DNA from: Streptomyces sp. SLBN-118 | GTDB lineage: Bacteria > Actinomycetota > Actinomycetes > Streptomycetales > Streptomycetaceae | Assembly: GCF_006715635.1 (NCBI RefSeq) | Contig: NZ_VFNP01000001.1 | Location: forward strand, 2,170,001 to 2,234,000 | DNA: 64,000 nucleotides | Direction of reading: 5' to 3' | Shown: positions 10,406-47,233 of the stretch, piece by piece | Position numbering within the stretch: position 1 is the first letter of the stretch | Layout: each line of letters begins with the position of its first letter | The notes under the pieces: model-generated | What the model was told of the DNA's origin: nothing | Seen by the model: only the letters and a program-made list of their open reading frames with translations | Databases searched by the model: none | Made by a program: the position numbers and the translations under genes

Positions 10406-11242
10406 TCAGCGCCCGACGTCGGCCAGCTTCGCGCGCAGTTGCAGAACCGACTTCGTGTGGATCTGGCTGACCCGGCTCTCGGTGACCCCGAGGACATTGC
10501 CGATCTCGGCGAGGGTGAGGCCCTCGTAGTAGTAGAGGGTGACGACGGTCTTCTCGCGCTCGGGGAGGGTATTGATGGCACGGGCGAGCAGCCGGCGCAA
10601 CTCCCTGTCCTCGGCGACCTCGACCGGATTGTCGGCAGCCGTGTCCTCAAGGGTGTCCATCAGACTGAGCCGGTCGCCGCCCTCGCCGCCGACATGCAGC
10701 AGCTCCTCCAGCGCCACCACGTTCGCGAGGGACAACTGGCTGAAAACCGCGTGTAGTTCGTCCACCGCGATCCCCATCTCGGCGGCGACCTCGCACTCCG
10801 ACGGTGTACGCCGCAGCTGTGCCTCGAGCGTGCCGTAGGCCCGCTCCACGGCCCTTGCCTTCTGCCGCACGGAGCGCGGAATCCAGTCCAGGGCCCGCAG
10901 TTCGTCGATCATCGCGCCACGGATACGGGTGATCGCGTACGTCTCGAACTTGATCGACCGGTCGATGTCGAACTTCTCGATGGCGTCGATGAGTCCGAAG
11001 ACCCCGGAGGAGACAAAGTCCGCTTGTTCAACGTTGGACGGCAGCCCCACGCTCACCCGGCCCGCGACGTACTTCACCAGAGGTGAGTAGTGCAGGATCA
11101 ACTGCTCGCGCAGCCGCTCGTCACCCGTGGCCTTGTACGACCGCCACAACTCGTCGAGCGACGAGGGAGCGGGGGGCCGCACGGTGCCACGGGCAGAGGG
11201 GGGCACTGCCGCGCGGTCAGACCCGGAGGTGTGCTGGGGCAT
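10406..11242 (-). CDS. whiG: RNA polymerase sigma factor WhiG (sporulation)
   Basis: FliA-type sigma factor that commits aerial hyphae to sporulation in Streptomyces. It has 278 residues from the ATG at 11242 ([19 protein letters not shown]); the upstream extension of the frame has no similarity. Region 2 is readable as [31 protein letters not shown] and [19 protein letters not shown]. Region 4 is [20 protein letters not shown] near the C-terminus. In Streptomyces WhiG is held inactive by the anti-sigma factor RsiG with c-di-GMP; that partner is not in this window. Confidence 0.97.
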
Positions 11243-11484
11243 GCGTTGCCTTGAGCCGTTCTGCTGTGAGGGGGGAGGAGACGAGCATCTGGGCCGGAAC
11301 CTTGGTGAGCGTAGCGTGACTGCGGCGTTGCGGTGGGCGAAGGACGGGGGAACGAACCTGTGCGGGTATGGGCTGTCGTCCACACCTTCGAACCGGGGCG
11401 GCCACCGCGCGCGCCGGTCTCTCAGATGTCGCCGACAGGCCTGCAAAGGTCATCGGCATCACCTTTTCACCCGAATGCTCCAGG

Positions 11485-12672
11485 TCAAGGACCGCCTCGC
11501 CGCGCGTTCGAACCGCGGATCGCGCTACGCGTCAAGTGCCATCCATCTCCCTCCCGTTCGACGAAGCCCAGCGCGTGCAGTTCGTACAGCCTGCCGAGCG
11601 TCTCGTCGGGCGTCGTCCCGGTGGCCCGCGCCAGCCACCGGCCGTCGACCGCACCTCGGGCAGGTATGGCCTCAAGAATCCGCGCGCTGACGGGATCCAG
11701 CAGATCCCTGGGGAGCACAGGCCCCCGCCGGTCAGGCGCAAGGTCACCGATGTTCCCTACGAGTTCTGCCACTTCCGCGGCGTCGGTGACCAGCACTCCC
11801 TCCCCGCGCAGGAGTTCGTGCACACCGGCCGAGAGCCCGCTGGTGGCCGGACCGGGGACTCCCATCGTGTAGCGGCCGAGCTTCTGTGCGCTGCGTGCAG
11901 TGGCGAGGGAGCCGCTGCGGTATTCGGCCTCGACGACCACGGTGCCCCTGGTCAGGGCTGCGATGACCCGATTACGCAGGACGAATCTGCTGGGCGTGGG
12001 ATGGTCGCCTGGCGGCAACTCTCCGATGACCAGCCCCTGTTCGGCGATGCGTCCGATCAACTCGGCATGTCCGCGTGGATAGACGACATCGACCCCGCAG
12101 GCGAGTACGGCGACGGTGGCCCCGCCCAAGGACAGTGCGCCCCGGTGCGCCGATCCATCGACACCGAAGGCCGCTCCCGACACCACGACCCAGCCACGCT
12201 CGGCGAGCCCCGCGCACAAGGTGGCCGCCATGTGCGCGCCGTACGGAGTGCAGGCTCGCGCTCCGACCACAGCGACCGAGCGCAGCGCCCATGTGCGCAG
12301 GTCGGCCCGCCCCCGCACCCAGAGTCCGATTGGTCTGCCGTCACCGAGGTCGTCGAGCTGGGTCGGCCATTCCTGGTCGCCCGGGCAGATGAAGCGGCCC
12401 CCTGCGGCGGCGACCGCGGCCAGATCGCGGTCGGGGTCGGCCCCCGCCGCCCGTGTCCGGTAGCCCGCGAGCCGCCTGGCCGTGGCTCCGGTCAGCCCCG
12501 CCTCTTCGTGCTCACGTGCGGTCAGCCGCGCCATGAGGCCCCGGGCCCCGAACTCGCGCAGCCATCGCCCGCCGTGCTCGTCCCCCGGCTCGATCACCCG
12601 TGTCAGCGCGGCCCGCGCCAACCGCTCATCCTCCCTGGTGACCGTCCGGAGCTCTCCCCCTGCGTCCGGCAT
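11485..12672 (-). CDS. dprA: DNA-processing protein DprA
   Basis: Single-strand DNA-binding RecA loader, known from natural transformation and kept in many non-competent bacteria. The protein has 395 residues. The Rossmann-like core shows VAVVGARACTPYG, VVSGAAFGVDGSAHRGAL and GVDVVYPRGH. A C-terminal winged-helix-like segment (GRLYELHALGFVEREGDGW) follows. The ATG at 12672 overlaps the comM stop (TGATG), so the two are translationally coupled. The frame is open further upstream, inside comM, but that part has no DprA similarity. Confidence 0.94.
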   Translation of the reverse strand: MPDAGGELRTVTREDERLARAALTRVIEPGDEHGGRWLREFGARGLMARLTAREHEEAGLTGATARRLAGYRTRAAGADPDRDLAAVAAAGGRFICPGDQEWPTQLDDLGDGRPIGLWVRGRADLRTWALRSVAVVGARACTPYGAHMAATLCAGLAERGWVVVSGAAFGVDGSAHRGALSLGGATVAVLACGVDVVYPRGHAELIGRIAEQGLVIGELPPGDHPTPSRFVLRNRVIAALTRGTVVVEAEYRSGSLATARSAQKLGRYTMGVPGPATSGLSAGVHELLRGEGVLVTDAAEVAELVGNIGDLAPDRRGPVLPRDLLDPVSARILEAIPARGAVDGRWLARATGTTPDETLGRLYELHALGFVEREGDGWHLTRSAIRGSNARRGGP

Positions 12673-43417: not shown

Positions 43418-43567
43418 GCGTGCACGGTAACCGCCCAAATGCACTCAGAGCACTTCGCCCCCACGCGTCATGGCGTACAGTCCCGTCGCAATGAGCTTCA
43501 CCCATTTGGGTGAGTCAGTTTGACGTTTGACCGTCGAGCTCCGTCGAGCACGAGGAAGGCACAGCAG

Positions 43568-44446
43568 ATGGGACGCCATCGACGCTCCGCCGACGCACCC
43601 GCCCCGCACCACCACGCGGACGCAGCCGCAGGCCGGCACCGGGGTGGTACACGCCGGAAGAAGCGGTCGGGCATGCCTGTACGCACCGGGCTGCTCGGCG
43701 CCTCCGCAGCCATGGCCGTAGGCGCTGTCGCCGTCGCGTCCGGCCTGCTGCCGGGCGGCGACACGTTCAACGTCAGCGGCGGCAGTGAACCGAGCGGGAA
43801 GATTCGCGCCGAGGACTCCGCCCAGCTGCAGACCCAGGGCGACGCGAGCGCCGAGCCGACGAACGGGACCTCGCCGTCCGCGAGCCGGACCGCGCCGCGG
43901 CCGAAGGCACCGTCGAAGACTCCCTCCGCCAAGCCGGCCAAGCCCTCGGCGACTCCGTCGAAGCAGACGAAGGCCCCGGTGGTGGAGAAGAAGAAGACCG
44001 CCCCGGCCCGTACCGAGGCCCGCCCCTCCAGCCGTCCGCCCGAGCGGGCCAAGCCCGTCGTCTCGGGCGCGGCCGGCGCCGAGGCCGAGGTTCTCGCCCT
44101 GGTCAACAAGGAGCGGGCGAAGGTCGGCTGCAGCCCGGTACGTACCGATTCCGGTCTTGCGGATCTCGCCGGGGACTTCAGCGCCGACATGGCCGCGCGC
44201 GGCTTCTTCGACCACACCGACCCCGACGGGGACACTCCCTGGGACCGCGCCGACGAGGCGGGCGTCAGGGGCCTCGGCGGCGAGAACATAGCCCGTGGGC
44301 AGGCCGACGCGGCCGCGGTGATGAACTCCTGGATGAACAGCGACGGTCACCGCGCCAACATCCTCAACTGTGACTACAAGACGCTGGGCGTCGGTGTGGT
44401 CATGGGCGACGGCGGCCCCTGGTGGACCCAGGACTTCGGCTTTTGA
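43568..44446 (+). CDS. Exported CAP (SCP/PR-1) domain protein
   Basis: The protein has 292 residues from the ATG at 43568, behind GAGGAAGG. An N-terminal His/Arg/Ala-rich cytoplasmic segment precedes a membrane or signal segment (LLGASAAMAVGAVAVASGL). A long Pro/Lys/Ala/Ser-rich linker (residues 85-170) follows, then the CAP domain, with EVLALVNKERAKVGCSPVR, FFDHTDPDGDTPWDRADEAG and NSWMNSDGHRANILNCDY. CAP proteins are often exported; function here is unknown. Confidence 0.88.
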   Translation: MGRHRRSADAPAPHHHADAAAGRHRGGTRRKKRSGMPVRTGLLGASAAMAVGAVAVASGLLPGGDTFNVSGGSEPSGKIRAEDSAQLQTQGDASAEPTNGTSPSASRTAPRPKAPSKTPSAKPAKPSATPSKQTKAPVVEKKKTAPARTEARPSSRPPERAKPVVSGAAGAEAEVLALVNKERAKVGCSPVRTDSGLADLAGDFSADMAARGFFDHTDPDGDTPWDRADEAGVRGLGGENIARGQADAAAVMNSWMNSDGHRANILNCDYKTLGVGVVMGDGGPWWTQDFGF

Positions 44447-44579
44447 GATAACAGCAGTTCAGGGGCTTACGAGCTCTTCCGGGCCGTCTCCGGGCCGTCT
44501 TGCGCAGGGTCGTGGTTATTGACGACTGATCCACGGCGGCCCGGGCCCGGGTCTCGCCTGTCGAGGTTTGCACGATCAT

Positions 44580-46697
44580 TCATTCCTTGTTGCGGGCGCG
44601 GACGACGTTCTCCTGGCATTCCTTCGCGATGTCCCAAGCGCCTCTGCTGTTGGCCGTCAGGTCGTTGTCCTCGAATACGCCGCCACCCCCCTCGTGAATC
44701 CTTACTGCCGCATTTTTGTTGCGGTGAATCCGGTTGCGGCGCAGGGTGGGCTCCGCGCCCGTCTTGGTCTCAACACCCGCGTAGGCGTTGCCGGTGATGT
44801 CGTTGTCCTCCAGCGTGCCCCCGCCGCTGTCCTGGACGAACACGCCGTTCTGCTTGTTGTCGTGAATCTGGTTGCGGCGCAGGGTGGGGCTGCCACCCGT
44901 CCGGATCGTCACACCCGCGTAGGTGTTGCCGGTGATGTCGTTGGCCTCCAGCGTCCCCACGCCGCTGTCGTAGACGAAGACGCCACCACCCTTGTTGTCG
45001 CGGATCTGGTTGCCGCGCAGGGTGGGATTGCCGCCCGTCTTGATCTCAACACCCGCGTAGGCGTTGCCGGTGATGTCGTTGTCCTCCAGCGTCCCCACGC
45101 CGCTGTCCTGGACGAACACGCCGCTCTGCCTGTTGTCCCGAATCTGATTGCGGCGCAGGGTGGGGCTGCAACCCGCCTGGATCTCAACACCCGCCAAAGC
45201 GTTGCCGGTGATGTCGTTGTCCTCCAGCGTCCCCACGCCGCTGTCGTAGACGAAGACACCACCACCCTTGTTGTCGTGAATCTGGTTGCCGCGCAGGGTG
45301 GGGCTGCCTCCCGCCTTGATCGTGACACCCGCCAAAGCGCTGCCGGTGATGTCGTTGGCCTCCAGCGTCCCCACGCCGCTGTCCTGGACGAACACGCCGC
45401 TCTGCCTGTTGTCCCGAATCTGATTGCGGCGCAGGGTGGGGCTGCCACCCGTCCGGATCGTCACACCCGCCAAAGCGTTGCCGGTGATGTCGTTGTCCTC
45501 CAGCGTCCCCATGCCGCTGTCATGGACATAGACGCCGCCTCCCCCGTTGTCGCGGATCTGGTTGGCGCGCAGGGTGGGGTTGCCGCCCGTCTTGATCTCA
45601 ACACCCGCGTAAGTGTTGCCGGTGATGTCGTTGTCCTCCAGCGTGCCCCCGCCGCCGTCACGGACGAAAACGCCGCTCTGCTTGTTGCCGTGGATCTGGT
45701 TGCGGCGCAGCCGCGGATCGGCGCCATTGCCGATGGCGACGCCGGCGAGCCCCTGGCTGCTGATGTCGCAGCCTTCAAGCTCCAGCCGCCCCTGGGTGAT
45801 GTCCACGCCGTGCCACGCACCACCGGTCTGGCGCAAGGTGAGGTTCGCGACCCGGCCGATGCCGGCCCGAAACGCCAGGACGTACGAGTCGTGGGCGCGG
45901 ATCTGGATGTCGGCGAGGGGCCCGTCGCCGAGGATTTCCAGGGGCTTGTCGACCACCAGGCCCTCCTCGTACAGGCCAGGCCGCACCAGGATCCGGTCAC
46001 CCGGCTGCGCGGCCTTGATCGCCGCGCCGACCGTGGCGAAGTCACCCCGGTGATAAGGGTCCACCACATGCGTCGGCGGCTCGGACTTGGCCACGACCCT
46101 GGCAGTGTCGCCCGTCTGCTCCGTGGACCCGGCCGCTGCTCCGCCGGCTTCCGCAGTCCTGACGGGCCGCGCCCGGGTGGGCGCGGGCGGATGCCAGAAG
46201 GTATCCCGCATCCGCGACGCCAACTGCGCGATCGCCTTGCGCACCAGCGGTGAGGTGAACGGCTCGAACCGTAACTCCCGCCAGTCGGCGTGCTGCCGAG
46301 AAGCCAGCACCCGCGCCATCTCATCGGCCTCCCGCAGCTCGGGATCATCCAGCTCCCGGGCACTGATGTAGTACACGGGCAGGATCAGGCCCTGGCGGCC
46401 CAGCTCACCCTCCCGCTCCAGGAACCGTGCCACCTCCGCCCGGCAGGCGGGGCTGCGGAACAGACTCGGCGTGATGATGACCAGCAACAGGGTCACCGCG
46501 TCCAGCGCCTCATCGATGCGCTGCTGCCAGTTCTGCCCCCAGGCGACGTCATTGCGATCCTGGAAGATCGCGAACTCCTCGCCGGTCTGCGCCCGGACCT
46601 CGGTGCCCAGCCGTTCCCGGAGCTGAGTGAGCAGACCGTCATCGTGCTCGTCATTGAAACGGACATAGCTCATGAACGCCGCAGGCGTACCAGGCAT
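44580..46697 (-). CDS. TIR domain fused to a repeat-built right-handed parallel beta-helix
   Basis: The protein has 705 residues from the ATG at 46697, behind GGAGGGGATGCC. Residues 6-110 form a TIR domain: AAFMSYVRFND, DRNDVAWGQNWQQRIDEALD, TLLLVIITPSLFRSPACRAE, then GLILPVYYI. E88 in CRAE occupies the place of the catalytic glutamate of NAD-cleaving TIR domains. After a linker, residues 205-330 start a beta-helix (RILVRPGLYEEGLVVDKP; LEILGDGPLADIQI). Seven 46-residue repeats, each two helix turns, follow to residue 651, plus one worn copy. No signal peptide or membrane segment is seen. The gene is divergent from an HxlR regulator and contains a TTA codon. Function is unknown; a ligand-sensing NADase or immune-type protein is an inference. 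Confidence 0.85.
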   Translation of the reverse strand: MPGTPAAFMSYVRFNDEHDDGLLTQLRERLGTEVRAQTGEEFAIFQDRNDVAWGQNWQQRIDEALDAVTLLLVIITPSLFRSPACRAEVARFLEREGELGRQGLILPVYYISARELDDPELREADEMARVLASRQHADWRELRFEPFTSPLVRKAIAQLASRMRDTFWHPPAPTRARPVRTAEAGGAAAGSTEQTGDTARVVAKSEPPTHVVDPYHRGDFATVGAAIKAAQPGDRILVRPGLYEEGLVVDKPLEILGDGPLADIQIRAHDSYVLAFRAGIGRVANLTLRQTGGAWHGVDITQGRLELEGCDISSQGLAGVAIGNGADPRLRRNQIHGNKQSGVFVRDGGGGTLEDNDITGNTYAGVEIKTGGNPTLRANQIRDNGGGGVYVHDSGMGTLEDNDITGNALAGVTIRTGGSPTLRRNQIRDNRQSGVFVQDSGVGTLEANDITGSALAGVTIKAGGSPTLRGNQIHDNKGGGVFVYDSGVGTLEDNDITGNALAGVEIQAGCSPTLRRNQIRDNRQSGVFVQDSGVGTLEDNDITGNAYAGVEIKTGGNPTLRGNQIRDNKGGGVFVYDSGVGTLEANDITGNTYAGVTIRTGGSPTLRRNQIHDNKQNGVFVQDSGGGTLEDNDITGNAYAGVETKTGAEPTLRRNRIHRNKNAAVRIHEGGGGVFEDNDLTANSRGAWDIAKECQENVVRARNKE
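44745..45710 (-). repeat. Seven 138-base repeats in the TIR/beta-helix gene
   Basis: Each 138-base unit encodes 46 residues, L-R-x-N-Q-I to P-T, for example RRNQIRDNRQSGVFVQDSG followed by ANDITGSALAGVTIKAGG. Two unit types alternate, so the pattern also repeats every 276 bases. Segments 45085-45169 and 45361-45445 are identical for 85 bases, and 44947 onward matches 45223 onward nearly as well. Confidence 0.95.
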
Positions 46698-46804
46698 GGC
46701 ATCCCCTCCCCCGCCACAACGTGTGAATTGTGACACGCCGGACCCCAGGCCACCCATCGATTGTCCTCGGTTTCCAGCCCCTCCTGGAACGCTGACGAAC
46801 AGCC

Positions 46805-46821: not shown

Positions 46822-46843
46822 GCGCCGGAGTAGGGTGCCCCTC

Positions 46844-47233
46844 ATGGACGACGGCGGCCACCCCTTCGACGTTTTCTCCAAGCAGTGCCCCTCACGCGGC
46901 ACTCTCGAGCACGTGACGGGCCGCTGGGGCAGCCTGACGATCGGGGCCCTGCACGAGGGGACCTTCCGCTTCAACGAACTGCGCCGGCGCATCGACGGTG
47001 TGAGCGAGAAGATGCTCTCCCAGACCCTTCATGCGCTGGAGCGCGACGGCCTGGTCCACCGGGAAGCACAGACCACCAATCCCCCGCGCGTGGACTATGA
47101 ACTCACCCCGCTGGGACGCGCCGTCGCCGAGCGGCTGCTCGGGCTGATCCACCTGATCGAGGGCCGGATGCCCGAGGTGCTTGCCGCCCGCGCGCGCTAC
47201 GACGAGGAGCGCGAAGGCCTCGGCGCCCGCTGA
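46844..47233 (+). CDS. HxlR-family transcriptional regulator
   Basis: The protein has 129 residues. The winged helix-turn-helix is typical: [60 protein letters not shown] and [11 protein letters not shown] lone cysteine near the N-terminus (SKQCPSRG, C15) is at the spot used by thiol-sensing HxlR proteins. It is divergent from the TIR gene, which makes that gene the likeliest target. Its 3' end overlaps mutM on the other strand by 37 bases. I use the ATG at 46844; a GTG at 46835 is an alternative. Confidence 0.9.

Follow-up and report, generated by a model that had tools for sequence, protein, structure and literature searches.

TIR domains are often capable of degrading NAD+ in the course of an immune reaction. 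Bacterial TIR effectors are known in numbers, and the open part of the problem is how each of them detects its trigger. The available part of one report (PMC12847820) describes SpbK of Bacillus subtilis as a single-protein TIR NADase that becomes active when it clusters at a phage portal. Larger multidomain conflict systems of prokaryotes combine TIR, caspase-like, AP-ATPase, vWA and FGS modules with repeat 'superstructure' domains, as set out in the accessible parts of PMC7159879 and PMC10907252; the main text of PMC7159879, as far as it was available, does not contain the term 'beta-helix'. No architecture joining a TIR domain to a beta-helix, NosD or parallel beta-helix repeat was found in the literature searched, which lay mostly outside subscription papers and bioRxiv. 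In some of the papers that mention a 'TIR domain' as well as a 'beta-helix', the two expressions refer to other subjects.

Here we have characterized a gene with this architecture in a window of 64,000 nt (the whole stretch of DNA analysed) from the soil bacterium Streptomyces sp. SLBN-118. The open reading frame (44580..46697, minus strand) encodes 705 aa from an ATG at 46697 that is preceded by a plausible ribosome-binding site. A second in-frame ATG lies upstream at 46757, and the start column is the same in five of the 11 proteins of alignment A1, our own included, the rest beginning earlier or later. The 5' stretch at 46698..46736 (minus strand) is alike in Streptomyces copies, clearly so in the window and in loci L005, L008, L009 and L011 and more weakly in L010, and probably represents the promoter end and ribosome-binding site.

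The predicted protein opens with a TIR domain, which a linker connects to a right-handed beta-helix built from 46-residue repeats of two coils each. The Pfam model TIR_2 matches residues 41-140 above its threshold (E 7.9e-10; 39.7 bits against a cut-off of 28). This bears out the TIR domain proposed in an earlier note made from the bare sequence, which gave it 110 residues; its length needs correction, as family alignments define a conserved region with a DWRxLRFE tail of about 165-170 residues (residues ~5-170; 46188..46685, minus strand). A variable linker follows (residues 171-209; 46071..46187), visible as a gappy stretch of alignment A1, then a first, non-repeated part of the beta-helix that is conserved in the family (residues ~210-330; 45708..46070) and finally the 46-residue repeats with the C-terminal end (44583..45707), all on the minus strand. 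The helix is matched by Beta_helix (Pfam PF13229, E 6.2e-85), by the broader Pfam model NosD, which it passes (E 1e-47), and by the NCBIfam para_beta_helix repeat TIGR03804 in 9 stretches (E 2.2e-57). Eight repeat anchors lie exactly 46 residues apart, at 351, 397, 443, 489, 535, 581, 627 and 673, each repeat being made of two 23-residue coils, and the underlying DNA holds 7.1 copies of a 138-nt unit with a superimposed 276-nt period. The beta-helix of 46-residue repeats described in the earlier note is thus upheld, as is its lack of an evident leader: no hydrophobic stretch was seen at the N-terminus when the translation was judged by eye.

By the features tested, the predicted product belongs to both the TIR and the beta-helix proteins, and by cut-offs or matches it is not a Thoeris ThsB, an FxsC or a member of the NosD copper subfamily. 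The NCBIfam models FxsC (FxSxx-COOH; 37.1 bits against a cut-off of 130), NosD_copper_fam (TIGR04247; 90.8 against 300), AlgG and Thoeris ThcB4 (17.5 against 220) all matched below their cut-offs, as did ThsB_TIR (12 against 21.2), and in PADLOC the protein matched PDC-S66 (E 6.1e-6), ThsB (E 0.036) and nothing else. It shares with ThsB a TIR domain of weak profile similarity, and differs from it in that a beta-helix is fused to the TIR and no partner gene recurs beside it.

The glutamate that the earlier note had singled out as catalytic, E88 (codon 46434..46436, minus strand), lies in C85-R86-A87-E88 and is Glu in all 243 rows with a residue in a profile alignment of 244 proteins, the remaining fragment being gapped. 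These proteins, near-copies included, came from searches (215) and from 29 of the 46 family loci described below, truncated, short or distant frames having been left out of both this count and the tree. In a smaller set of pattern-cut homologues, 11 of 120 having been dropped because the pattern could not cut them, the column is Glu in 108 of 109 and gapped in one. A profile of the TIR family matches 28 distinct sequences of solved structures at E <= 0.1 (best E 6.6e-9); Cat1 and AbTIR are also matched, and in three HMMER alignments E88 is paired with a glutamate of plant L6 (in two chains) or of 7uxr. The residue sits at the catalytic TIR position. According to the accessible part of PMC7075850, a catalytic Glu is present in >70% of TIRs and critical for the NADase activity of a subclass. 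NADase activity through E88 is therefore likely.

Our main reading, to which we assign a probability of about 0.55, is that the protein is a one-protein receptor in which ligand-driven clustering makes the TIR cleave NAD+. Such a receptor would be cytosolic, and its beta-helix (residues ~210-705) would bind a ligand mainly along one variable face, the ligand probably being a foreign or damage-related macromolecule. Several receptors on one repetitive or oligomeric ligand would bring their TIR domains together, and the clustered TIRs would cleave NAD+ via E88, so that the cell is stopped or killed in the course of anti-phage or other conflict. That this face binds the ligand, that clustering activates the protein, that NAD+ is cleaved and that the protein acts in conflict are all inferred; the mechanism is proposed by analogy with SpbK at the phage portal, as described in the available part of PMC12847820. 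Like SpbK, in that same part of the report, the protein would be a single polypeptide with a TIR effector and a separate recognition domain. SpbK, however, has a small helical bundle for recognition and a C-terminal TIR, whereas here a long variable beta-helix follows an N-terminal TIR.

The proposed division of labour is consistent with the other partners of this TIR type. TIRs with the DWRxLRFE tail are joined to CobT-type vWA, NB-ARC with TPR, ERCC4 with HhH and FGE-sulfatase domains, and further to AAA, caspase with TPR, CHAT, cNMP-binding, NUDIX, GAF-GGDEF, SBP_bac_11 (in P0205) and HSP70 domains, part of these names being ones that we take to be correct from their Pfam numbers; the beta-helix accounts for 94 of the 120 listed rows of the partner survey by our own count. 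NB-ARC/TPR, SBP and cNMP-binding domains are sensor or switch modules, and caspase and CHAT are effector-type; this partner set suggests that the beta-helix fills the place of a sensor. A 100-row TIR tree calls for at least 15 changes between the beta-helix and another partner, a number that is uncertain because starred branches force only 2. This range of partners makes the TIR type look like a plug-in effector.

Among the described designs, the fusions to NB-ARC and TPR (STAND, NLR-like) carry the same TIR type; examples are L031, P0121-P0128 and P0208, most of them with TPR and the named ones archaeal. They differ from the TIR-beta-helix protein, which is without an NTPase switch. The multidomain conflict systems are alike in having TIRs, shared module types and repeat domains, as far as PMC7159879 and PMC10907252 were accessible, and differ in an adaptor or ternary partner that is absent here. 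Among the rarer fusions, TIR with CobT-type vWA occurs in alphaproteobacteria at L033 and L037 (Pfam) and at L038 and L054 (from translation). TIR with an ERCC4 nuclease domain and HhH occurs in a Methanosarcinales locus (L020, 4858-6081). This gene and two TIR-beta-helix genes of Methanosarcinales (L027 and L036) each start <60 nt after a gene of one synthetase family. In L029 a lectin domain was at first suspected by eye, an idea that we dropped because Pfam gave no match to it.

The family is broad. When 5.8 billion proteins were searched, 1577 of 8000 scored candidates matched at E <= 1e-5, and in the best 120 of these 1577, by our own count, 119 have the TIR match and all 120 the beta-helix; homologues are thus not confined to secreted wall enzymes, an outcome that would have spoken against the earlier note. 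Scanning a genome collection with a pattern from the TIR alignment returned 46 loci in Streptomyces, Frankia, Chloroflexota, Desulfobulbaceae, Blastocatellia, several Pseudomonadota, Methanothrix, ANME-2 and others, so that the family is present in several bacterial phyla and in archaea. From their translations, 21 of the 46 were labelled TIR with beta-helix (Pfam was run on two of the 21); the remaining loci have other partner domains, are cut short or are distant TIRs. As the best homologues combine TIR and beta-helix and the hosts span several bacterial phyla and archaea, these proteins may form a sizeable class that has no name in the PADLOC defence library.

This distribution bears on the main rival to our reading, a non-defence cell-death switch in which an internal or wall-derived ligand would turn the TIR chemistry to programmed death or development in filamentous or aggregating microbes. 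We consider it unlikely. It would suit several of the hosts, since Streptomyces, Frankia, Electronema, Methanothrix and ANME-2 are, we assume, filamentous or aggregate-forming, as other hosts are not. It sits less well with the sporadic occurrence of the gene within its own genus: the TIR part was matched at E <= 1e-30 in only four of 150 Streptomyces genomes, at >90% identity in two of them (our own and one other) and near 40% in the other two.

The gene lies between a gene for a CAP-type protein (43520..44446, plus strand; named by eye) and an HxlR-type regulator gene (46835..47233, plus strand; so named in the earlier note), both of which we place outside the system. CAP and HxlR genes stand side by side in eight of 20 other genomes (nine loci), ~89-1004 nt apart, and in none of these nine loci is there a TIR match; in the window the distance is 2388 nt. 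On this comparison the TIR-beta-helix gene is a single-gene insertion between the two. The earlier note had set HxlR beside it in a short islet; the islet is the TIR gene itself, and HxlR is not its partner because the two flanking genes adjoin without a TIR gene in eight related genomes, where HxlR is the ancestral neighbour of CAP.

The same genome holds a second copy (L005, contig C2 of G000, 10650-12545, minus strand), near a glutamine-synthetase-like gene (named by eye), with a TIR 97% identical and two repeats fewer. In a blastn comparison, likeness between window and paralogue is confined to 44571..46766 (minus strand), a segment that takes in the gene together with ~69 nt before its start and 9 nt past its end, and the flanks beyond are unrelated. 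With a simple ORF caller, none of the window's neighbours was matched in the paralogue locus or in those of four other Streptomyces (L008-L011), which also argues against a non-defence switch.

No partner gene recurs near the family. In neighbour clusters built from 580 ORFs, which a simple script had called in the window and in 37 loci, none of the 25 largest qualified as a recurrent partner; the largest reach five loci each and were named by eye as DnaX-like, methyltransferase and LepA-like. Because neighbouring partners do not recur and the TIR type joins other sensor and signalling modules, the sensor and effector are probably contained in one protein, as the earlier note had suggested. 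The predicted product looks like an undescribed one-protein cellular alarm, and it would work like a TIR receptor that carries a recognition module of its own.

The lack of a recurrent partner also weighs against the idea that the TIR makes a messenger of the cyclic ADP-ribose type for an effector encoded elsewhere, in the manner of Thoeris. TIRs with a conserved Glu, such as those of Thoeris and plants, can make such products, and a few partners of this TIR type are linked to nucleotides (NUDIX and cNMP-binding). SpbK, too, makes N1-cADPR (PMC12847820, available part). Against this stand the poor match to the PADLOC ThsB profile given above and a second ThsB profile that found nothing in the genome at E 0.01, and we regard this route as improbable. 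ThsA is not among the 25 families listed of the 113 PADLOC families matched by the 142 of 178 close neighbours scanned. The NUDIX-like fusions form a group of P0207 (from its source name only), P0210, P0211 and P0188, in which the NUDIX-like partner might process NAD-derived nucleotides.

PADLOC matches are scattered among the neighbours. In the same scan, mad2 was matched three times, BrxL and PDC-S03 twice, and HEC-03, NsnB, AriA and IetA once each, along with others, counts that stand without a matched control. Ten hand-picked neighbours included no BrxL and one RtcR-like gene. The Pfam families of the neighbours are mainly metabolic or general, with Uma2 found twice and BrxL_ATPase once (25 of 185 families listed), and several are housekeeping or metabolic, which a non-defence switch would explain. 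The scarcity of mobile copies would fit such a switch as well: among 72,556 plasmid records there was no match over 80% of the protein and 59 were partial at <60% identity. The TIR alone matched two plasmid records (46.6% and 32.1% identity) and two of 50,697 phage records, which belong to a single Enterococcus phage and reach 31.5% identity. As the plasmid matches are partial and those in phages weak, mobile carriage has no support from these records. A scan of IMG/VR returned one locus, a TIR-vWA gene that is like the Hoeflea copy among the alphaproteobacterial TIR-vWA genes named above in coordinates, length and printed stretch.

Returning to the proposed receptor, its putative recognition module changes faster than its TIR. 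Between the two paralogues, 71 of the 220 codons compared in the repeats differ but only 10 of the 170 in the TIR; the figure for the first, non-repeated part of the beta-helix is 21 of 121. The repeats also vary in number, with eight anchors in the window gene and six in the paralogue. Such rapid change of the repeats would not be expected of a developmental switch, which should be more constant.

With strands and faces assigned from the repeat pattern, variation is concentrated on one strand and the turn preceding it. The outward positions of strand 3 (17, 19, 40 and 42) had a mean entropy of 2.9 bits and the preceding turn one of 2.7. Values were lower in strand 1 (0.4), strand 2 (1.5), the turn that follows strand 3 (1.5) and the inward positions (0.5). 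For 80 repeats of a distant set, from proteins with TIRs <70% identical and 15 loci, the values in the same order were 3.0, 2.6, 0.5, 1.6, 1.5 and 0.5 bits. Single positions were counted over 366 repeats of 112 proteins (those of 416 spacings that were exactly 46), and rows were unweighted throughout. On this assignment the TIR is conserved, and the repeats diverge mainly on one predicted face and in number.

A variable outward face is unlike a conserved active site, and this counts against a protein that acts on sugars or that enters other cells as an effector or toxin. Right-handed beta-helices are frequent among secreted enzymes, and at E 1e-5 the full-length profile has no solved relatives except the alginate epimerases 4nk8, 4ozz, 4nk6 and 4ozy. 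The TIR nevertheless stands at the very N-terminus with no hydrophobic leader seen by eye, the NosD and AlgG models of NCBIfam fall far below their cut-offs, and we think delivery or sugar processing very improbable.

The variation could instead reflect neutral slippage in a tolerant solenoid without selection by a ligand. Consistent with this, duplications have occurred within genes (repeats 2 and 4, for example, are 96% alike), and in 65 within-gene pairs of Streptomyces repeats pN/pS at the variable positions, which were taken from the distant set alone, was 1.13 (bootstrap 0.92-1.43), compared with 0.57 elsewhere and 0.12-0.40 for the TIR parts of the window copy against five others. A value of 1.13 is compatible with relaxed constraint and not clearly >1. 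Slippage alone, however, does not readily account for an outward strand 1 that is almost fixed while strand 3 varies, in the whole and in the distant set, nor for a surface as non-random as that of coil B, where strand 3 is aromatic (71% Y/F/W/H at position 40, 65% Y/H/F at position 42). On balance we hold the neutral explanation to be rather unlikely.

A beta-helix linked to an AAA ATPase, whose family also occurs in this genome, provided a control. Over its 11 matched coils, of which one was falsely matched within the AAA part, the entropy was 3.1 and 2.4 bits at strand 3 and 2.3 and 2.2 bits at strand 1; at an equal number of coils, the TIR family had 2.7 and 2.7 at strand 3 and 1.5 and 1.3 at strand 1. 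The strand-3 bias is thus partly general, because the AAA-linked beta-helix also peaks there, as neutral slippage would allow; the contrast between the strands is nonetheless larger in the TIR family.

If the one-protein receptor is correct, repeat number and one exposed face may diversify to track changing ligands, with a fixed TIR re-plugged onto different sensors, a tentative proposal that we would not yet favour. Equally tentative is the further idea that such a family would be a prokaryotic counterpart of repeat-built immune receptors, with a face that is charged in one coil and aromatic in the next. LRR proteins and lamprey VLRs are repeat-based immune receptors and likewise solenoids, in which repeats duplicate and one face varies; this comparison concerns only how they work, as the fold is unrelated and their somatic diversification is not seen here. 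What the family offers is the union of a large, repetitive, fast-changing and putative recognition module with a TIR on one polypeptide. Since the two are joined in this way and the TIR type accepts other partners, the trigger could be tested by swapping repeats.

Several related arrangements were seen alongside. The AAA-linked gene of this genome (L007, 5748-8357; beta-helix and AAA ATPase with AAA_lid_6) has similar 23-residue coils and differs in having no TIR; its family is slowly evolving, because Streptomyces homologues sampled from it (20 of the best 120 of 2079) average 90% identity over the whole alignment. Single Desulfobulbaceae/Electronema assemblies carry two genes of the TIR family with differing C-terminal parts (L013/L019, L016/L018 and L017/L022). 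The Streptomyces genome itself has eight TIR_2 matches, including two close pairs at G000:C2:991036-993671 and C2:1446844-1449349, the open frames of which encode 1340 and 455 aa and 1431 and 456 aa.
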